Of a DNA stretch of 64,000 nucleotides, positions 3,829 to 57,900 are shown in pieces. The position numbers and the translations under genes were made by a program. Within the stretch, counting starts at the first letter, position 1. Every line of letters begins with the position of its first letter. Source of the stretch: Kappaphycus alvarezii (Eukaryota > Rhodophyta > Florideophyceae > Gigartinales > Solieriaceae); the NCBI GenBank assembly GCA_002205965.3, contig NADL03000665.1:806001-870000 (forward strand), written 5' to 3'. A model generated the notes under the pieces. That model was not told the DNA's origin. It searched no databases and saw nothing but the letters and a program-made list of their open reading frames with translations.

Positions 3829-6551
3829 ATGTCCATGGACACGGATGAACCCGACGTGCAACTTGTTGAAAGATCCACGTTCCGCGACCATATCTCTTCA
3901 AGATCCAGTCCCAAAACAGAAACCTCACGGCCGCCAAAGCGTCGACCTCCTAGCAATGAACGTCCGTTTGCTCGCCCGAGAGAAATTCCTCAACAAAGAA
4001 ACCGCCTATTGTCCCGCCCCAGCGATCCGCCAGCGCATTCATCAAACCGCAAATGGAGGAAAGACGGAAATTTCTTTGTGCCAGGAGGCCCCCACTCAAC
4101 AATTTCTCCCAAATCCACCTTTAGAGCTGCAGCTGCAAACCTAAAACTCCCTCTTGAGACTGATGGTTTAAGAGGTTGTACTCCGAAACCAGACCCTGCG
4201 AATCGCCAAACTGTGCAACCCGCAGACTCACCAAATTCCAGGGCATGTACAGTACAATCTCGTATCCCAGTGATCAGAGAAAAAGCAGAGTACAACCGAA
4301 CTTTGAAAGAAGATCGAGCAAAAAGAGAGGGCTCCGCCAGCTGGCACAATTCCACAACGAATGTTGGGAGTGAGTCCAGGGCTCCTGGTCACGCTATTGA
4401 CCTTGATGACGATGGTGATGATATCGGACCCCCACATTCCGTCAAAAGCGTTCCACCACCCACGAAATTGGATGAGCCACTACCTAGTCGACGGTCAAGA
4501 CGCGAAACGGGCGTGCCTCAGAACCAAGTCGACCAAAAAGATAATGTGGCGCGCGCTTTGATACTAAGGAAGATGATGTAACCGCGGGGCAAAGCCTTTC
4601 ACCATCACTGAGATTAGCTATGACGGACCAAGGGATTTGATTTTCATGTATCCACCAGGTGAGAGAGGTAATATCCGCGTCACCACAGAGGAGCGAGAAC
4701 GTTTGAAGCAGCACAAGTACCTCAATGATAGTCTCATCGACTTTTATCTCAAGTTTTTGGAAATGGATCTAAAGAGACGCCCTCCCCCCTCAATTTTGCG
4801 ACAAAATTCTTCAGCTCATTTTTCTTTGGCGTGCTTCGCCGAGTGAAGACCGATGGTACCAGAAAGAAAAAGTCTGGGATGAAATCTCCCTCTATTGATT
4901 ACAGTGGTGTCAAGAACTGGACCAGAGGGTTCGATATCTTTTCAACTGATTTCGTCATCGTTCCGATATGCGATTCGTTTCATTGGAGCCTTATCATTGT
5001 CGCTAATCTTCGGAACTTGGAAAGCACGCTCAGAATCAAGAGGTAGAGTTGAAGCAAGATGGGAAGGAGCGGGATCAATTGACCGACCCGGGACGTCCCA
5101 AGATTATCTACTTGGATTCTATGGACCCTGACCGTGGCGGTGACTTGGCCATTCCGATTAGGCATTACCTAGTTGAAGAATGGTTAGCACGAAAGAAGGG
5201 GTACAATTCCAAAGACTGCGACAATGAGAGGACTAGTACAATCAAGTCATTCAGGAGGGCCATTCCACTCTTGAAGCCGAACGTACCGGTTCAAAATAAC
5301 GAGTACGACTGCGGATTATATCTGTTAAACAACCTCTCAATGTTCCTTAACAACACGGAGAGTTTTATGGCGAAAATGCTTCAAGGAGACCTAGACATGA
5401 AGATGGCGTATGGTAGCGGTGACATCACCAAGTTGCGGAAGAACATGACTTTCCTCATGGATTTATTTGAGGAGGAATGGAGTAAAGGCATGCAAGATCG
5501 CCTCAGGAGCTAAAAACTAATGACCTTCAAGAAAAGATCAAAATTTTACCGACAAGGCTCCTGCTCGTGGAACAGGAGGGTGAAGAAAATTCCAAGGAGG
5601 TAGACAATGTCGCATGGGCGGAGGAAGACTCTATTGAACAAGACCCGCATCCGAGCAAAGAGCACGTGCCTCATAGTGCTAATCCGCCATTCTCGGTGAT
5701 TGAAAAGGTAGATCTAGATTCCGATGAAAGAGTTGAATGCGCTGTGAATTCGAAGCAGGACGAATGTAGAAGCTCAGACATAAGAGAAACGATCCGCTTA
5801 TGCGCCGAGGCTGGTGGTGCAAGTGCCTACGAAAACAGATGATGTCGTACCTGTGAAAGGCCCTCCGCACGACTGTCCCAAAGAGGTTGATGTCAATATC
5901 ACCAGTCCTTCAGGGCGCAGCGTTGAATCGAGGGATGAGGAGCCTGTTCTGATGGAGTGTGAAAGCGACTGTATCGGATCTGAAGACGTTAGGGGCTCGG
6001 ACACGAGACTGCCGGGAAACCGAGATTTGAGCAGGGATAGTGACAGAGTTACCCCGGTGGACGTGGAAGATGGGCACGACGACGCTTCCATGAGTGACCA
6101 CAGTATCGATGGGGGAGACGCTTCCAGTGTGGAGAAAGTCTGCGACTCTGAGATCATGGAAACGAGCTCAGATTATGGAGAAATGGAGATAGAAAATCAC
6201 AGCAGCCATGTCAATGATGTTGATAATGCGGGTGATGTTGAGGTTGTTCCCCATGGGGGACTTGGTGCCTATGAACAAAAGCGCACTCTTGACCCCATGA
6301 TGAAATGCGAAAACAGTAGAATGCTATACGAAGACGAGCACGAGGAGATTATCGAAGAAGGAAATGGGAATGATATGGAGGAACCATTGCAACTGGTGCG
6401 GAACAGTGCAGATCGCAAGATGAAAAGGAATAGGGAACGGAGGAAGATCTTAAACGAACCTGGTGCTCGAGGCACTCCGGGACGGCCGTCACCCGGGTAT
6501 GCAGGAGGTGGGATAAGTTTTAGGATGACTTACCCCTGGAAGGGTAGGTAG
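3829..6551 (+). CDS. Ulp1/SENP-family SUMO protease with long acidic tail (needs frame corrections)
   Basis: Predicted cysteine protease (peptidase family C48) that matures SUMO or removes it from proteins, probably in the nucleus. ATG at 3829 opens a disordered Ser/Pro/Arg-rich region of about 250 residues. The catalytic domain starts near 4590: DLIFMYPPGERGNI, then LKQHKYLNDSLIDFYLKFLE, the usual Ulp1 entry. The triad is visible: His in DSFHWSL (4981-4983), Asp in IIYLDSMDP (5115-5117) and Cys in NNEYDCGLYLL (5310-5312), with the oxyanion Gln at 5292-5294. From about 5500 an acidic, Asp/Glu/Ser-rich tail of about 350 residues runs to 6551. The reading frame must shift near 4580, 4797, 5046, 5500 and 5820. 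Every domain part is otherwise intact, so sequence indels are the simplest explanation. Whether the acidic tail belongs to the same protein is inferred from continuing codon-like sequence across the frame changes. Confidence 0.85.
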
Positions 6552-8882: not shown

Positions 8883-9016
8883 TACCAACCGACCATATTT
8901 TTCAAATATTAAATCACCCCACATTTCCCCCCCTTGTACCAATTATTTGATGCGTTTTGGAACGTAGGCTAACCCATTTTTCAATCATTAACACACCCAG
9001 TTTTCCCCCCAGTACT
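8883..9016 (-). repeat. Dispersed C-run/GTAC repeat, two related units
   Basis: Two related units. One has CCGACCATATTTTTCAAATA, ATTAAATCACC and a run of C. The other (8968-9012) has GGCTAACCCATTTTTCAATC, ATTAACACACC and again a run of C next to AGTACTG. The first recurs inverted at 58527-58580 and the second recurs at 18477-18526, so this is a dispersed repeat family, perhaps ends of a small non-autonomous element. Confidence 0.7.
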
Positions 9017-11251: not shown

Positions 11252-11348
11252 TTGTATACTGTACAGTACAGTACATCGAGTAACATGTACCGTTCGATTA
11301 CAAGTACAGTACTTAGGACTGCCAACCTTTCTATTACTCGCAGTAAAC

Positions 11349-11593
11349 TGATGGGGACAATTGTTGGATTCTGGAATGTTTTAATTATTTTTAAGTACAG
11401 TACAGTACAATACTGAACTGTACTTAAAATATGATTTATTTCTATATTTTAGAGTACAGTGCTGAAATATATTTGTTTTCTAGGAACCACCGGCCACCCT
11501 TTGGCCACATGCATTTTCGACCCTTGCCAATATATGTAGGCGAAGCGTCGGATGCGCGCAAGTAAACTCACAACACAAAGACCGACACCAACA
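11349..11593 (+). repeat. 5' LTR of Ty3/gypsy element
   Basis: 245 bases, TG...CA ends, paired with 18171-18445. It lacks about 30 bases of GTAC-rich sequence present in the 3' copy and holds one block of AGTACAGTACAGTACAATAC. TATATGTAGG near 11532 may be part of a promoter. Confidence 0.88.
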
Positions 11594-11601
11594 TAGTACT
11601 C

Positions 11602-12899: not shown

Positions 12900-15800
12900 A
12901 TCTAAACCGGAATCTCAACTATTGCGAGCCGTTAAACTTAAGGTTTATGGCACTGACGTTTAGGCATTGCTAGACTCTGGGGCGGTCCCCAACGTGATTT
13001 CTGCCGTCTTGTCTCAACGATTATATCTATCGCGGAATTTTACGTCAAGGAAGATAACAGTGGCTAATGGAGAAAGTTCATCTTGTGTCTGCTCGTTGCA
13101 GAATGATCCTACTACTTTCAGAGAGCAAGGGATCAAGCTGAACTACCTTGTTGTCGAGAAGTCTCCATTTGAAATTTTCATCGGACTGCCTGCACTCGCA
13201 TCTATGCGCGCGAGCCTAGACATTGGAGCACAGAGTGTGCGCCTGTACATCGGGTCTGAAGAAGTTGTGCTTACGCTCGAACCTGACGCAAAAGCGAACG
13301 AGAAGAGCCTCGTCGAAGGCTAAGATATCGGTACTCCCAGCGAAGATTTCACATAAGATTCGATCGCTGGACCGGAGTCATCGGATTCATCCGAAGAGGA
13401 ACTTGTTTTGTTAATCTGCGGAGACGTCGTGTAACAAGAAGATGAAAAGCATCCCGACGGAGAAGATACCACCGATGAAAAAGAAGAAGAAGTTCGTGGC
13501 GCTCTGAGGGCCCGTCTAGCGCACCTTCGAGAAGAAGACCAAGCGCGAATAAACGATTCCCTCCGAAGCAATGGAATAGTCGCTTTGAAGATTGACAATC
13601 TCCGTCCCGTCGCAGTTCTAGTGGAATACAAGTTTGAGCTAAAAGACCAAAATAGAGTTTACCACAGAGCTCGTCGCCTGGCTCCGCGTCACAACGATAC
13701 GGTCCGACAAGAAGTTGATAAGATGATGGAAGCAGGAATTATTACCCCAGAATCTTCTGCATGGTACTTTCCTGTAGTTATCGCCTCCAAGAAGGACGGA
13801 AAGCCCAGATTCTGTGTGGACTACCGCACTTCGAACCGCAATATGAAGGCTGGTCATTGGCCTCTGCCCAAAATAGAAGAAAAATATTCGATGACCTAAA
13901 AGGGTAGTTCGGTATTCACTACCCTTGACTTGTTCGCAGGATACTGGCAGATTCGCATGGGCGAAGATTGTAAAGAGATGACGTTCAAGTTTGACGTTAT
14001 GCCCCTTAGTCTCATGAATGCGCCATCAACTTTTCAACATAGGATGGACTATGTTTTACGGGACCAAACCTTTGCGCGCGTTTATCTGGAAGATGTTGTC
14101 GTCTTTTCTAGCTCCGTTGAGGAGCAAATTGATCACTTAAATATAATTTTCGACGCTATCGGTAAGGCGGGTCTGAAGCTCAAGATCAATAAGTGTGACT
14201 TTGCGAAATCGGGTGTGAAGTTTCTGGTACACAAGGTGGACAAAAACGGAGTTCACGTCGACGAAGAGAAAATTGAGGCCATCAAGGAATCACCGGTTCC
14301 GAAGGATACGACTGAGTTGCGCGACTTCCTTGGCCGTACTGGTTATTACCGCCGCTCTATTCGTGGCTTCGCCGATATTTCAGTCGCATTACATGCCTAT
14401 ACGTCTGGCAATAAGAAATTAAAATGGGCAGAGGAAATGATGGCGGCATTCGAGACCTTGAAAGAGAAGCTCACCACTCCACCGGTTCTGTCATTTACAG
14501 ACTTCGATTACCCATTTATAGTGGAAACTGACGCTTCAAGCGTCGCAGTAGGGGCAGTTCTCACCCAAAAAGGAAGACGGGAAGATGCACCCCGTACAGT
14601 ATGCTATCCGCACTATGAATTCGGCTGAGAAGAGCTATTCAACACTTGAAAGAGAAGCTCTAGCGGTAATCTTAGCCCTGCGCAAGTTTTGAGTATACCT
14701 GTTGCCGACAAAGCCATTCAGGTTGGTTACCGATCATCAAGCCCTCCGCTACGCTTTTAAAAAGAACGACATCCATGGAAGGTTGGCGCGGTGGATGGAC
14801 TTTCTTGCTGAGTACGAGTTCGAAGTAGAGTATAGGCCGGGCGCAAATAACGGCGCCACGGACTACCTGTCGCGAGCCGTCCCGACTGGTTCCGCACTAC
14901 CCACAGGGATCGAAGAAGGAGACTTGGTTGTAACAGTTAGTTCGGTCGCTGCCGTGGAGGGCCTTTCATTGGAATCCCATCTCATTGAGGTCGCTCGCCA
15001 TTTGCAGGAGTTTAAGATCGAAAAAGAAGACGAAACCAAGAGGCGTGAAATCAAGCGTATGGTGGCGAAGCGATTCATGGTTTGGGATGGGAAGCTACTA
15101 CGACGCACGAAAATGGGACTCAAGACTGTTCCCTTCCTTGAGGATAGATCTTCGATACTCCACGGTGATATTGTACACTGGGACACCGAAAAAACGAAGA
15201 AGTTCATCTCTGACTGCTACTGGTGGCCGTATATGCATAAGGACATCCAAAACTACGTGAAAAGTTGTGAGGGGTGTCAAAAGACCAAACAGATTCCGCC
15301 TTACCGTACAAGCCTGAAATTGCCGCTCTCAAACATATTTGAGACTTATTCGATCGATTTCGCCGGGCCATCCCCGAAGTCGAAGGGCGGGAAGAAGTTT
15401 TTGCTCATTGCGGTAGAGCATTTAACGGGTTGACCAGCCGCTTTGGCTACAGAAGATTCGTCGGCCAGGAATGTTACTCAGTTCATAGAGAAAGAAATTT
15501 TGTTCCACTTTGGTCCCCTTAAGATTATTATATCCGACAATGCTGGATTCTTCACTGCTGCTTCTCTCATCTCCTTTTTGGGGAAACACAGAATCTCTTG
15601 GAGCACTTTTGTAGCCTACGCCCCCATGTCGAATGGTAAGGCCGAGAGGATGGTACGCACCATCAAGACTGCCGTCAAGAAAATGGTTCTTGGTCAGGGA
15701 ATGGATTGGGAGGAGAGCTTCCCGAACGTTTTGTATGGATACCTCGCCTCCGGAGCATCCCCGCTCGAGTTGATGTACAGATTTGTGTCGCACATGGAAT

Positions 15801-16163
15801 CATCCGATGCGATAGCTCTAATTCCAGCGCCTCGGAGAGCCATCGGCGACTGGAGTTGCTAGCAAACGTGGCACTCCGGGCACGAAGAAGGAATGAAAAA
15901 GAGCGTATATTGAGAAAAAAGGCATTCACAGAACCTGTAGGGTTCAACGTAGGCGACTGGATCCTTGTCGCACATGGGGCGGGCTTGCCGACAACAGTTA
16001 AATGGCCAGCTTTCAAATCTAGGTACTTCGGGCCGTGCCAGATATAAAAAGGGGATCACCTGAGGCATTGGCTGACCTCGTATGGTGTACGTCACTCCCG
16101 ACGTGCTATCCACGCGAGTCGTTTGGTTCCTTTTGTGGTCCGCCCCAGAAGCCTGCAAAAGTA
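12900..16163 (+). pseudogene. Ty3/gypsy pol: protease, reverse transcriptase, RNase H, integrase
   Basis: Parts in order are as follows. An aspartic protease has LLDSGAVPNVIS at 12970, just after an in-frame stop at 12962. Reverse transcriptase has GIITPESSAWYFPVVIASKK and FCVDYRTSNRNMK, then TTLDLFAGYWQIRM and VMPLSLMNAPSTFQHRMD. Its catalytic box reads YLED (14083-14094) where YxDD is expected. RNase H has TDASSVAVGAVL and then LVTDHQALRYAF. Integrase has a zinc-binding HGDIVHWD to CEGCQ segment (about 15160-15285), then SIDFAGP, IISDNAGFF and SNGKAERMVRT, giving the D, D, E residues. A C-terminal part has VGDWILVAHG, KWPAFKSRYFGPCQI and, after a stop, AIHASRLVPFV. Frame changes near 13900, 14630 and 15780 and stops at 15431 and 16045 break it. 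The Asp-to-Glu change in the RT box would itself be expected to disable it. Confidence 0.92.
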
Positions 16164-16430
16164 GTCCCCTCTATTCTCGCCCATTTCAGTGGTTGCAAAG
16201 TGACCCTTTAGCAGAACTGTCCCCCTGTTTGTTTGAACAATATATATTTTGGTAGTTTGAGTAATAAATTCAATTCGTTGGTTTTAAACGCATGCCTACA
16301 CAAAAATAGAAATGAAAGAGAAGAAAAGGAAAGAAAAATAGAAGAAGCGAATTACCAAAGAAGAAAATTGAGTGATAGAACCCGATGGATCACCGCAAAA
16401 CCCTACTGCTGGAGCTACTCTGTTTCTCCT

Positions 16431-17480
16431 TCACCTCCGACTGCGCGCTGCGAGTTTTACGGATTTCCGATTTGGTCCTGCCACAGCTGCGGGGTCGCTT
16501 TGACGACTGTTCACTTCTAAGTGACAGCTTTCGAACTTCCAGTATCGGTACGAAGGTCGAGCTCGCACCCACGCCTCAACCAAGGACTTCTCGGAGAGCT
16601 CAAGAACGAACGTTTCAGCATGGTCGAGAAGGTAACCCGTCTGAGTATTCATCGCAAAGCATTGGCTGACGCCGTTGGAACCTTCTATGGAGACTATATA
16701 GATGACGGGGTCCAAAGCCAACGCAGATTTAACGAAATATTACATCTGCAGGGGTTTTTCGAGCACAATCTCCCTGGGGGGTAGGTGTTTTTGGGCATCC
16801 TGTAGATCTCTGATACGGCCTCCTCTCAAGTGATTCGCGTGGCATCGAGCCATATTTGACCGGTGGTAGTCAAACCAACGCTTTGCGTCGGCCTCCTTCC
16901 CTAATTCTCGCAACCCATTTGCGATGGAGGCGTCAATGCACCCTTCTGTCTGGTCAACGAACCGGGTCTTAAGGAGCGGGAAAGAGCGGTACTTGGTTTC
17001 ATCATCGGGGAGTTCCCGAGAGCGAATGAAAGAAAGAAGAATCTTCCGGCCAGGACGTTCCTGGCACCATTCGTGGATTCCAAAGATCTTCTCTCAACAG
17101 TTGTCCGAACACAACGTGAATAAACCCTCCTCTTCGATATCGTGCAGGAAGTAACTGCCTCCACCCTAAAAGGAAAGGGTCTATAGAAGGATAGTATGGA
17201 ATTCCCTGGTGGCCTCATCTTCTCCCTTGTACACCGCTTTCTTCTCGTCTCATACTATAGACTTGACGATCCAGTCTTTTCCGACACAGTTTAATACGTA
17301 CGGGAGTCATAAAGGGATTCCGTCATTCCCAATTGGCAGGAGACCTCCTTTGTAAGCTCCCTGGTAGGCAAGACGGAAACTGCGTCCATTATATTCTTTC
17401 CAAAGGGGAATAGAAAGTCGCAAGTGCGAACCGTCGTCACGCTCGGAAACCCAGAGGTGAAAACAACGAGTTAGGGATCT
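16431..17480 (-). pseudogene. Antisense decayed coding frame inside the Ty3 element, unknown protein
   Basis: One minus-strand frame stays largely open from 17480 to 16431 (about 345 codons with six stops). Its longest open stretches look protein-like: FHLWVSERDDGSHLRLSIPL and YNGRSFRLAYQGAYKGGLLP at the start, IFGIHEWCQERPGRKILLSF and LPDDETKYRSFPLLKTRFVD in the middle, and LALDPVIYIVSIEGSNGVSQ and AWVRARPSYRYWKFESCHLE near the end. I do not recognise a family. It begins one base out of frame from the end of the H3-tail-like frame (17471-17665), so a single-base indel would make the two continuous. It lies where some LTR elements carry extra or antisense genes. Function unknown. Confidence 0.4.
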
Positions 17481-17665
17481 TTTGGCGACATGTATTTGAT
17501 CTTAATAATGTCCGAACTTCCAACAAGGGCCCTTGTCTGCCGAGGTAGTTTAAACTGGGCTTCGGCGTCTGCTTGCCTTGAAATCCCCGCGGCCTTGGTA
17601 GCGATCTTCTTCCGAGGCGCTTTTCCTCCCGTAATCAACCTAGATAACTGCTTTGTCCTCGCCAT
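17471..17665 (-). CDS. Histone H3 tail-like small ORF, antisense in the Ty3 element
   Basis: ATG at 17665 opens 64 codons without a stop. The first 26 residues (MARTKQLSRLITGGKAPRKK, then IATKAA) follow the H3 N-terminal tail residue for residue in register. With H3 numbering (Ala 1), R2, T3, K4, Q5, R8, T11, G12, G13, K14, A15, P16, R17, K18, A21, T22, K23, A24, A25 and S28 are kept. K9 is Leu, S10 is Ile, R26 is Gly and K27 is Ile. The rest lacks a recognisable histone fold. The ending IKYMSPKDP faintly recalls the H3 C-terminal VTIMPKD, which could be chance. The frame is also open upstream of the ATG to 17941 through a hydrophobic, repeat-encoded stretch. It is antisense to pol, with the 3' LTR upstream as a possible promoter. 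Likely a captured H3 fragment. Expression is unproven. Confidence 0.6.
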   Translation of the reverse strand: MARTKQLSRLITGGKAPRKKIATKAAGISRQADAEAQFKLPRQTRALVGSSDIIKIKYMSPKDP

Positions 17666-17800
17666 TGCAGTTTTAGTGCACAACTGAAGATCAGCTTCCA
17701 CGAGTATACAGGAAGTCGGAAACTGCACCTCCGTACTTCTCAGCTTCCGCGTCACCGTCGTTGTGCCACCGCAAGATGAGGAGAATAAGATGGCGAGGAG

Positions 17801-17936
17801 AAACACGAGGCGCACAAGCCTACAGAGCGAACCAGCTGAACAGGCGTACAAGCTTGCAACGGGTACAGGGCGCACAAGTCCAGAAGAAGCGCGAAACACG
17901 AGGCGCACAAGCCTACAGAGCGAGCCAGCAACAAGG
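17801..17936. repeat. Two-copy tandem repeat, about 90-base period
   Basis: The word AAACACGAGGCGCACAAGCC with following CTACAGAGCGA occurs at about 17801 and again at about 17893, with a shorter GGCGCACAAG copy between. It lies upstream of the H3-tail-like ATG on the antisense strand and encodes a repeated AGSLCRLVRLVF in that open frame. Confidence 0.75.
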
Positions 17937-18170
17937 CGCACGAGCTGAGGACGCGTAAAAGCTGGGGGGCGTACAACCCGGGGAACCGCACAGGCCGAGA
18001 GGCGCTAAAGCTGGGGAAGCCACACAGGTACACAAGGCGAGAGCAAGGCCGGGGAAGCAGGAGTAGTGGTGTCGAGGCTTGGGTTCGAAGGGATGGCCGG
18101 GCTGTTATTTGAAATACTGAAACGCACAGTACAGTATGCAGCCCGGTGGTCCATTTTGTAGGCGGGGTAG

Positions 18171-18445
18171 TGATGGGGACAATTGTTGGATTCTGGAATG
18201 TTCTAATTATTTTTCAGTACAGTACAGTACAATACTGTACTGATATATATAGCTCGTACAGTACAGTACAATACTGTACTGTACGATTTATTTCTATATT
18301 TTAGACTACAGTCCTGAAATTTATTTGTTTTTTAGGAACCGCAGGCCGCCCTTTGGCCACGTGCATTTTCGGCGCTTGCTTATATATGTAGGCAAAGCGT
18401 CGGATGCGCGCAAGTAAACTCACAACAAAACGACCGATTCCAACA
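18171..18445 (+). repeat. 3' LTR of Ty3/gypsy element
   Basis: 275 bases, same ends as 11349-11593. It contains two blocks of GTACAGTACAGTACAATAC (about 18217 and 18256) where the 5' LTR has one, an internal duplication of roughly 30 bases. Confidence 0.88.
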
Positions 18446-18476
18446 TAAACCAACCCAATTTGCCCCCTGTACAATG

Positions 18477-18526
18477 GGCTAACCTATTTTTCAATCATTA
18501 AAACACACCAGTTCCCCCCCTGTACA
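18477..18526 (-). repeat. Copy of the dispersed C-run/GTAC repeat
   Basis: GGCTAACCTATTTTTCAATC, ATTAAAACACACC, then CCCCCCTGTACA. Nearly the same as 8968-9012. A second CCCCCTGTACA lies just upstream at about 18463. Confidence 0.7.
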
Positions 18527-53114: not shown

Positions 53115-54193
53115 ATGGGCAGCAGCGACGCCGCGCTGCGTGAACGCTATCGTAACATTCTCAACGCAAACTGCACCTCCGATTACGACTCTCTTCGCCG
53201 TCTGGTTCTCCTGCGCGGCCTTCCCTACGACGCAAATGTAATGCACACCGATATGTTTGGCCGCTGTTCCCTGCGCGGTTTGGTGTGGAAAGCGCTGCTC
53301 GGCATCGGTCCTATTGATGTCGATGAATATACTAATCTTGTCAAGCAGGGTCCTTCTGCCGATGACTCGCGCGTCCGTGAGGATGCACGGCGTACCTTTT
53401 CGCATAGTGATGATTTTACAACCCGCGTTCCAACTGACAAGCTCATTCGCCTTCTTAATGCTTACGTCGCTCATGTGGAGATAAGCATGGCATCTATGCG
53501 CAGAGTATGAGTCTGTTGGCGGCGCCGTTTTTGTATGTCATGCCCGAACCGGATGCGTTTCATTGCTTCCGAGTGTTTGTTCAGCATAAGGTCCCGTCGT
53601 ATGTGAAAAGATATGCGGGGGTGAGGGAGGGTTGCGCCTTGTTGGACAGGTGTTTGATCCATACGAAACCAGATCTTCATCGCTTGTTTGCGAACTATGG
53701 CCTCAATGCAGAGGTGTATGCCTTTCCTTCGGTCTCGTCGCTTGGCGCATGCGTTCAGCCGATGTCAGATACCGTGCGCTTGTGGGACATTCAACTCGCC
53801 TTTGGAGTTCACATGCATATTTTGTTTACTCTCGCACGTCTCCTTATTTCAAGTGATAGTATTTTGGATGCCGCTCGTCGTACCTCGGCCGCTCCGATGA
53901 CTACACGGGAATTGGAGCAGGGCCTGGGACTTGATGCTGAGACCGTGCTCGCAAAGGCTGTCCCCTTGGCTGCCCGTTTGGATGATCAGTTGTACGATCG
54001 ACTTGTTTCGCATGCAACAGCACACGCGGATGATCTAGAGGCCCCAAGAGCGCATCCTAAGCTGGATTCCGTTCCTGCAGAAAGTCAACGTGCTTCGCAT
54101 CCGAATACTGTTCGCCAAGGCTCTTACTCTTCGTCCATGTCTGTGGCTAGTGACAAGCATGCCCACACTGGACGGGAGCAGGGAGGGACATGA
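53115..54193 (+). CDS. BUB2: BUB2/Cdc16-type TBC-domain GTPase-activating protein (one frame change)
   Basis: GAP subunit that in yeasts holds mitotic exit or septation by acting on the Tem1/Spg1 GTPase with Bfa1/Byr4. ATG at 53115 starts a short N-terminus, then RRLVLLRGLPYD and RGLVWKALLGIG. The two catalytic fingers are visible: VREDARRTF (I-x-x-D-x-x-R type Arg finger, near 53380-53400) and YAQSM (Gln finger, near 53500). After that comes APFLYVMPEPDAFHCFRVFV, and the diagnostic YAFPSVSSLGACVQPMSDTV and LWDIQLAFGVHMHILFTLAR, which separate the BUB2 branch from other TBC proteins. A Ser/Pro-rich tail ends at 54193. A one-base frame change is needed near 53485 between the HVE and KHGIYAQSM segments. 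Length of about 360 residues suits the family. A partner Bfa1 gene is not in the window. Confidence 0.88.
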
Positions 54194-54928: not shown

Positions 54929-57900
54929 TTAGCTGCCTTTAACGGCAGCTTGCTTTACGCGTCCTTTGCCACCCGATTTTTTCTTTTTCGACGATTTTCT
55001 ACTGTCCTTCCCCTCCGGCCCTCTTGTCTCAATCATATTTCTGCACATCGCCAGACAAGCGTTGTAGTCCAGTTCTTGAATCGAAACGGTTTCAAGGCTC
55101 TCAGCAGCCTTCATCACGCCTGAAGGCTCCATGGTCGTCCCCGCCTTGACAGCGGACACATCCTCTCTTCTTTCAGAGTGCTTTGCTGTACTTGCAGAGG
55201 ATCTTAGAGCGCGGACAAAGTCAGCCGCTTTCGCGGAAATTGGGGCTTGAATGTGTACTGGTCCATCAAAAATGTCTTCCACTAGTCTGAATACTTGTTT
55301 CGGTTTTCGGGATCGTGTTGAGAGTCTGCTAGTTTTCCCTGCTGTGCCCTGGCCACCTTACGCTCGGAAATGCCTCCAGTGTTTTTCCCAATAATGCTCT
55401 AATTTCCCTTCTCCCTCTGGTGCGCTATCCGCTCTGGTGCTAGTTGAGCTTGCACTTGTAACGGCAGAAAACCCGTCATCATCACCATTTGGATTAAAAA
55501 AGCTTACATCGAAATTTGTGTCAATATAAACAAGAGCCGGTTTGTCGCCTCCGCCGAGCTGGAACTAGACACAAATTCCAAGGACACACATCTGCACCAG
55601 ACGACGGCTGCAGCACTCTCAAAGGGTACGGGGACAAGACGTCAAAAATCGCTACTGCAGAATCCAAGGATCTTGCAACGTGTTGTCAGTCCAACGGACT
55701 CCTTTCTGTTTCTTACGCGCCCTCTTTGTCCGCTTCCTGTGCTTCGTACCGGTATCCAATCCCTCCACTGCGCCATTTGAGTCTCTGCATTTCACCGTTT
55801 GCTAGCTCATCTTTGTCATTTGATTCTTTCTGGACTTCACTAGCTCCTCTTTGTCCTGTTTCCTACGCGCCCTCTTTGACTGCTTCTCGTGTTCATAATG
55901 GTAGCCAATCCCTCCACTGCGCATTTGAGTCTTATTTCACCGTTTGCTAGCTCATCTTTGTTATTTGATTCTTTCTGGACTTCACTGTTTAGCTCCTCTT
56001 TGTCCGGTTTCCTACGCGCCTTCTTTGACTGCTTGTGCTTCATACCGGTAGACAACCCCTCCATTGCGCCATTTGAGTCTTTCTGCATTTCACTGTTTGC
56101 TAACTCCTCTTTGTCGTCAATACATTCCATGGTAACCTCTTTCGTCCTACTCAAATCTGTGTCTGCTCACCAAAGCAATGAATCCCGTGGCTGGAATTTG
56201 GACTGCTATTCCAAAGGACTTTTCATCCACCGCTATAGTCTGGGTTTTGTTCGAATTCGAGTTGACCACCATATGCCCTGAGTCAATGCATTCCACACAT
56301 ATATACCGAAATCAGTCGCGGTGATAAACATTGGAATCCCAACATTAATAAATCTCACGCAACGCAAAGTTTCTTCTGCTGGAGGGTGAACGAGGGCATG
56401 CAAAAGTTCAAACCGAATAGAAGATGGACCAGACATTGTCGATGCATGAATTGATTCAGGGTCGTTTGCATCGGCCCCACCATCGTCAAGCAAATCCTCA
56501 ATGTGCCACAAGGTCAAAAGGCTCCCGCAAGTCACGGCAAGTAAAGAGCCGTCACTGGAAAAGCAAGAGCTGCTACATGGAAGAGCCTTATAACCAAGCT
56601 CCGCCTCAACCCTCCACGAGGCGGTGCGTCTCTCCTCTTTCAATTGAAACGACCTCCATATCTTAAAATTCCCTCTGGGCGATGTAGTAACAGCTATTGG
56701 CAAGTGCGGATGGAAGCAGACCGAGGAGACGTCTTGATCAGCCCCATGTGGACAACTAAAGACAGCCGTCATAGTAATTTCATCGTCAGCATTAATGTCC
56801 CACAGTCGGAAATTTGTTATGCGATGGCTGGAGTTGAGACCCTCGGCATTTTCCGCGAAAAGGTTCTGAACTTCCACGGTCGCCATGAGTCGTCCCGATG
56901 GATGAATCTCAACAGCGGTTACCCGTGCAGGTCGTGGTTGTACATCTTCCCTTTCCGCAGAAACATGGACAATATTGCGCGGAAAAATGGTCATATCAGC
57001 GATGTGTTGTCCCTTGTACATGTCGTACAATTGAAGGTTTGAGCCAGTTCCGGACAAGAGCACCTGATTCGGGCGTTTTGGATAGCGAGTCATGCGAACA
57101 GCCTCAAGCGATTGGGGTGAAGCCCTCGAGGAGAGGTCACAGCCTTTCTTTGGGTGATAATGGTCTATTGTGATCGATATGCCTCGAATGGTTGCAGTGG
57201 TTTCACTTGAAACTAGGTCAACAATGCGAACCGAGTTGTTTGCCTGAGTCAAGGCACAGAGTCTGTCGTCGTTGGACAGTGAGAGCGATAAAATTGGGGC
57301 ACCAAGGCGAGGAAGAAATTGTTTTCCAAACTCGTTCGGGGTCATTTTCCAGGTGACAAGGACGGCCTCGTTGCCACCAGAGAATAAATGATTGCCATCT
57401 TTGGAGAATGCCAAGCCGCGCACGGGGGAAGAGTGCCAGTGAAGAGTAGAATTGGGAGTGTCTGCTTGTCCCAGTTTCGTGTGCTTGTTTGAGCGGGTCA
57501 ATAAAGAACGCACAGACCTGACCCCGTTGATTTCCAACTGCAAGCTTTGAGCCATCATGACTAACGCAGACGGCAGTGAGACACCAGCGATGAGCGATTT
57601 GGACCCAGGGGCGATTCAGCATCGTGCAAGATGCAAGGTACACATCTTCATTTCTCAAAGTAGCAACGACGGAGCCGTCCCCTGACGATACCAATCTGTG
57701 ATTTCCAGATTTCAGGACTGCATCCGGGAACAGTGCGTTGTTACCTTTCTGGCGTTTCGAATGCTGAGACTTTGCCAAATTCACCACAACAGTGTTGTTG
57801 TTTGTAGAACAAAAGAAATTGCCTTGATGAATACGACACATGTGCAAAATGGTGTGCCCGAGATCGACGGTGCGCAAGCAAGCGCCATCCGTGATATCCC

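Follow-up and report, generated by a model that had tools for sequence, protein, structure and literature searches.

The window, that is the whole stretch of 64,000 nucleotides of Kappaphycus alvarezii DNA analysed here, contains a retroelement delimited by a 5′ LTR at 11349-11593 (11349-11595 as aligned) and a 3′ LTR at 18171-18445, both on the plus strand. The LTRs were identified by alignment, and their ends were placed from the TG...CA termini and from a 5-bp target site duplication, TAAAC, the left copy of which lies at 11344-11348 and the right one at 18446-18450. Between the two LTRs 223 of 247 ungapped columns are identical, leaving 24 mismatches, and the alignment has 30 gap columns, due to a 29-bp indel and one more; the figure of about ten percent given for LTR divergence in the preliminary description of this DNA was therefore correct.

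The plus strand between the LTRs carries the pol frames. An aspartic protease-like frame (12964-13323), named by eye from the ALLDSGA motif in its translation, is followed by the reverse transcriptase and RNase H frames (13435-14628), which are interrupted by an in-frame stop at 13897-13899. The part beyond this stop (13900-14628) matches the Pfam families RVT_1 (E 3e-13) and RT_RNaseH_2 (E 6.3e-16), as well as the Ty3 Gag-Pol of PDB entry 7q5b (E 1.6e-32); 13435-13896 alone has no Pfam match and is attached to the reverse transcriptase by frame and position. The end of RNase H and the integrase zinc-binding domain follow at 14693-15433 (RT_RNaseH, E 3.8e-8; Integrase_H2C2, E 5.5e-14), while the frames for the integrase core and C-terminus, interrupted by a single frame change, occupy 15434-16047; here the assignment relies on the frames and on an rve match (E 1.2e-4) of 22.7 bits, under its cut-off of 32.6. 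A Pfam search at E ≤ 0.5 with the broken frames 15640-16044 and 16023-16208 gave no match, hence no chromodomain was seen. The Ty3-type reverse transcriptase, RNase H and integrase in this order, together with the TG...CA LTRs and the duplication, identify the element as Ty3/gypsy (Metaviridae). Its pol is indeed broken, as had been described: besides the stop in the reverse transcriptase region there is a second one at 15431-15433, and the frame changes twice, once between 14628, where one frame ends, and 14693, where the next begins, and again inside the overlap 15640-15862. No second copy of the element turned up when it was compared with the remainder of the window. A 49-nt sequence repeated at 84% is present on both sides, about 2.3 kb to the left (8967-9015) and just to the right (18477-18525); insertion may have taken place close to a repeat dispersed in the host genome.

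About 2.1 kb separate the integrase from the 3′ LTR, and this interval contains, on the antisense strand, a segment resembling the tail of histone H3. It opens an ORF at 17471-17665 on the minus strand, consisting of ATG, 63 further codons and TAA, which encodes 64 residues. The first 26 residues (M to A25 in H3 numbering; 17588-17665, minus strand) align to H3 without gaps and are identical at 20 of 26 positions, start Met included. The essentials of the preliminary description, i.e. 64 uninterrupted codons beginning with an H3 tail, antisense inside a Ty3/gypsy element, are thus confirmed, and the start Met is of the native type. In a six-frame scan of the whole window against H3 residues 1-26, the tail has an ungapped BLOSUM62 score of 98, while the runner-up, a Lys-rich stretch at 55009 (minus strand), reaches 39 and the top score across 40 Markov-1 random windows is 32. 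Moreover, phmmer aligns residues 1-45 of the ORF to the H3 chains of the PDB with an E of 8e-7, and BLASTP against one canonical H3 gives 25 identities in 45, with two gap positions. The match, for which a short chance resemblance had been considered, is far above chance.

A Pfam search of the ORF gave no histone match, probably because the core dominates the H3 profile. Its sole match at E ≤ 1 is PF15715, the histone-like domain of the PCNA-associated factor PAF, which covers residues 1-34 (E 0.079) and at 14.2 bits stays below the cut-off of 23.4; H3 itself matches the ORF far better. As a separate observation, the start of the ORF (17652-17665, minus strand) forms a 14-nt inverted repeat of 93% complementarity with a plus-strand copy, ATGGCGAGGAGAAA, at 17790-17803; this copy opens a small basic frame, and the repeat may be due to chance.

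The homology to H3 is confined to the tail. The ORF continues in frame for 38 more codons and TAA (17471-17587, minus strand); these codons, residues 27-64, show no greater similarity to the remainder of H3 than shuffled sequences (P 0.48-0.80). A complete H3 query, read from one of the genome contig loci described below (L002), finds the tail in the window at E 3e-8, whereas for the core of the same protein (residues 27-136) the best match anywhere in the window has an E of 1.4. The shuffle test, the core query and the Pfam search thus agree in detecting no histone-fold core after the tail: the H3-derived part of the ORF is 17588-17665, and the sequence beyond A25 is something else.

This boundary bears on the possibility that the ORF is what remains of a complete H3 gene, or of an H3 pseudogene, nested in the element and decayed there. 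Such an origin would account for the H3-like tail and start Met, and the alignment can be extended, loosely, to about residue 45; in addition, a search restricted to the 2.1-kb region finds a core match of 26 residues at 18108-18031 (minus strand, E 0.038). The latter, however, corresponds to H3 residues 47-72 and lies upstream of the tail, i.e. in the wrong order, and its E is 1.4 window-wide, so that it is probably a chance match. Since residues 27-64 have the same frame and age as the tail, and yet lack H3 similarity, an evenly decayed whole gene is unlikely; with the part after A25 comparable to shuffles and the core found only at E 1.4 in the window, a decayed full-length gene was rejected, and we regard it as very improbable.

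Within the tail, the lysines at positions 4, 14, 18 and 23 are retained, while position 9 is Leu; further along the ORF, position 27 is Ile. The preliminary description had reported these residues correctly, but its statement that K27 is lost needs qualifying: the position is at the limit of the homology or beyond it, and, because the homology ends after A25, Ile cannot be counted there as a substitution of K27. In the aligned part the ORF differs from H3 at six positions in all (6, 7, 9, 10, 19 and 20), and the changes at 6, 7, 10, 19 and 20 indicate that the losses extend beyond the lysines that carry repressive marks.

The divergence of the LTRs, 9.7% (10.4% after Jukes-Cantor correction), implies that each copy has changed by about 5.2% since the insertion, and this age was used in 5,000 neutral simulations that started from the present sequence and introduced substitutions only, without indels. 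The 64 codons remained free of stops in 69.9% of the simulations; survival of the frame, which had been put forward as an argument for function, was accordingly rejected as a sign of selection. The simulated tail accumulated 2.8 amino-acid changes on average, and at least six in 5.8% of cases (P 0.058). Thus, neither the open frame nor the altered lysine requires selection. Many of the differences between the tail and H3 may have arisen only after the insertion, in which case the tail may have been almost canonical when the element moved; this copy, now broken, has probably been inert for a long time.

These results weigh on the idea of a selected tail mimic, in which the H3 tail would have been kept while both ARKS motifs, around K9 and K27, were destroyed, so that the product would draw away activating or reader complexes and escape repressive methylation. 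The intact contexts of K4, K14, K18 and K23 and the altered residues at both ARKS motifs are what this explanation would predict. On the other hand, decay after insertion leads one to expect 2.8 changes, close to the six observed, the second ARKS motif is situated at the limit of the homology or beyond, and only one broken copy is available; a selective loss of K9 and K27, as first proposed, is not borne out, and of the explanations weighed here this is the one to which we give least credence.

On the antisense strand, the H3 ORF is preceded by a leader of 113 codons (17666-18004, minus strand), open in the same frame and devoid of Met; the H3 ATG is therefore the first ATG of the open frame. 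Downstream, a coding-like frame in a register other than that of H3 runs from 17501 to 16431 on the minus strand and overlaps the H3 ORF at 17474-17501. It has 7 stops in 357 codons, six of them internal and the last being the frame end at 16431-16433; over a length of about 1.07 kb, the internal stops follow each other more closely than the interruptions counted in pol. With a codon table derived from ten training stretches, which were taken from the window and included pol, 16431-17501 (minus strand) obtains a codon score of 13.5, the highest of the six frames, while the random maximum of the shuffle control has a mean of -9.4 and a standard deviation of 6.5, and one of 400 shuffles scored as high. 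Shorter cuts give P values of 0.005 (16431-17300), 0.05 (16431-17093) and 0.04 (17093-17300). The downstream register also scores well at 17680-17800, and within 17474-17665 it exceeds the H3 frame (5.5 vs 3.3; P 0.085 for the top score); since it scores high even in these two stretches, where it contains stops, the codon signal may be partly compositional. Stop-poor stretches as long as those of the downstream frame occur in 6-19% of random sequences. The frame at 16431-17501 is probably a broken coding sequence; a past coding role of the minus strand downstream of the tail is indicated, not proven.

No homologue of the downstream frame was found in Pfam, PDB sequences, the protein database or the viral_contigs collection, every profile or structure match stayed below its cut-off, and single-sequence structure models of this part have pLDDT values of 36.9 and 38.7, which make them unusable. 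Three weak matches were recorded, to TraI-like_C for 17310-17501 (E 0.058) and to YoaL for the 177-residue frame that contains the H3 tail (E 0.052), both far under the Pfam cut-off, and to RNase H2 subunit C for 16431-17093 (E 0.28); these identities were set aside on account of their weakness. A papain-like cysteine protease, guessed by eye for 16431-17093, likewise found no support: neither Pfam nor PDB sequences gave such a match, and the models are those just mentioned. CpG deamination was dropped as a source of the downstream stops, the observed/expected ratio of CpG being near 1 (antisense region 1.02, element 1.05, whole window 0.91).

Relatives were sought in three collections. In the protein database, the 64-residue ORF returned no candidate, the 177-residue frame (region 112-177) two candidates, none at E ≤ 0.001. 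The downstream frame, with X at its stops, drew 923 candidates over region 60-330 without any at E ≤ 10. That an H3-tail query should retrieve just two candidates suggests that this database is largely devoid of eukaryotic histones, so the blanks are weak evidence. In viral_contigs, pattern-matched stretches were obtained for the ORF (31), the downstream piece (4), the reverse transcriptase (5) and RNase H/integrase (3), none of which was confirmed, and the tail pattern had no match. The tail pattern matched seven loci (L001-L007) in genome_contigs, all on contigs of bacterial MAGs; five run into the H3 core, L006 leaves its contig, and L005 diverges from H3 after about residue 22. None of the seven resembles the 64-codon ORF, and these H3 tails are likely eukaryotic contamination.

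The explanation we prefer, tentatively and at somewhat less than even probability, is that the 5′ piece of an H3 gene was captured by the Ty3/gypsy element and forms the start of an antisense accessory ORF that is now broken. Some 26 codons from the 5′ end of an H3 coding sequence, start codon included, would have entered the element in antisense orientation, in the interval from pol to the 3′ LTR, and become the N-terminus of an additional antisense ORF that continued into unrelated sequence. Tail and downstream frame would formerly have been one protein, made from a putative antisense promoter near the 3′ LTR, and in the nucleus its H3-like tail might conceivably have competed for, or borrowed, the readers and writers of the H3 tail, to the benefit of the element. 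The H3 match, its sharp end at A25, the complete element and the antisense position, all directly observed, argue for such a capture, as do the top codon score of 16431-17501 and the position of the H3 ATG as the earliest Met in a long open frame. Against it, a single copy was seen, the H3 and downstream frames are out of register, the stop-poor stretches are near chance, the shorter cuts are weaker, the internal stops are dense, and the downstream part lacks both a homologue in the searches above and a usable fold in the models.

A rival explanation is a passenger fragment, that is an H3 piece picked up by this single copy, or present in it as a small insertion, which was never a functional protein, the coding-like signal downstream being separate or compositional. 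In its favour, the open frame survives without selection in most neutral simulations, stops in the downstream frame are about as dense as chance would make them, its codon signal persists in places where that register has stops, the H3 frame and the downstream one are not in register, and viral_contigs holds neither a relative of the ORF nor a match to the tail pattern. A passenger is less easily reconciled with a piece that starts exactly at the H3 start codon, no earlier Met being present in the open frame, with coding-like codon use downstream on the same strand, and with a location that is that of known antisense ORFs (PMC7264820, PMC11963269). We consider a passenger fragment a serious possibility, though one that we are inclined to doubt.

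If a captured H3 piece was indeed expressed in a protein, the intact contexts of K4, K14, K18 and K23 could, judging from the sequence, be bound or modified by the proteins that recognise them, and the tail might possibly act as a decoy or mimic for the host silencing machinery. A broader proposal, that a Ty3/gypsy family encodes an antisense nuclear accessory protein in which a captured H3 tail precedes a domain specific to that protein, and that this tail reaches the readers, writers and erasers of H3 tails and lets the element act on its own silencing, is in our opinion unlikely. An antisense ORF beginning with an H3 tail would nonetheless suggest a direct and testable link between such ORFs and the chromatin machinery of silencing, and, if true, would be a retrotransposon case of histone-tail mimicry through gene capture; a mere passenger fragment would be a curiosity of gene capture.

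The NS1 protein of influenza A is reportedly a viral histone mimic with a short H3-like tail. Like the K. alvarezii ORF, it is a case of a sequence resembling the H3 tail that is carried by a viral or mobile genome, but the H3-like stretch is C-terminal in NS1 and N-terminal here. Unlike the short motif of NS1, moreover, 26 residues with 20 identities point to descent from an H3 gene over convergence.

Antisense accessory ORFs of Ty3/gypsy elements are described in a review as relatively frequent in plants and of unknown function (PMC7264820). Those located between pol and the 3′ LTR, termed aORF-3R, include Grande gene23, RIRE2, Retand and PvRetro13 (PMC7264820, PMC11963269), and according to the review no clear likeness to other proteins has been described for their products. 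The ORF described here shares with them the Ty3/gypsy context, the antisense orientation and the position between pol and the 3′ LTR; it differs in its H3-derived N-terminus, the word "histone" occurring 0 times in the texts of PMC7264820 and PMC11963269. Tandem repeats are found in the pol-3′ LTR region of about half of the surveyed Retand elements (PMC11963269), while the present element has only a two-copy 37-nt repeat. The TRP28 domain of Retand-type aORF-3R has no Pfam match in the downstream part. Capture of host gene fragments (transduction) by LTR retrotransposons, as treated for additional ORFs in PMC7264820, likewise places a short host coding fragment in an element; the piece in this element differs in that it begins at the start codon and opens an antisense frame. 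A limited search of the open-access literature, covering titles and the openings of abstracts, found no description of an H3 tail in a retrotransposon ORF.

Outside the element, the window contains a frame for an Ulp1-like C48 peptidase at 5007-5510 (plus strand; Pfam E 2.4e-5). A WDR75-like frame at 56236-57615 (minus strand) and a TBC-domain frame at 53459-54190 (plus strand) are long open stretches representing eukaryotic host genes. A tandem array of 2.7 copies of a 149-nt unit, at 55706-56115, lies inside long open frames of the plus strand.
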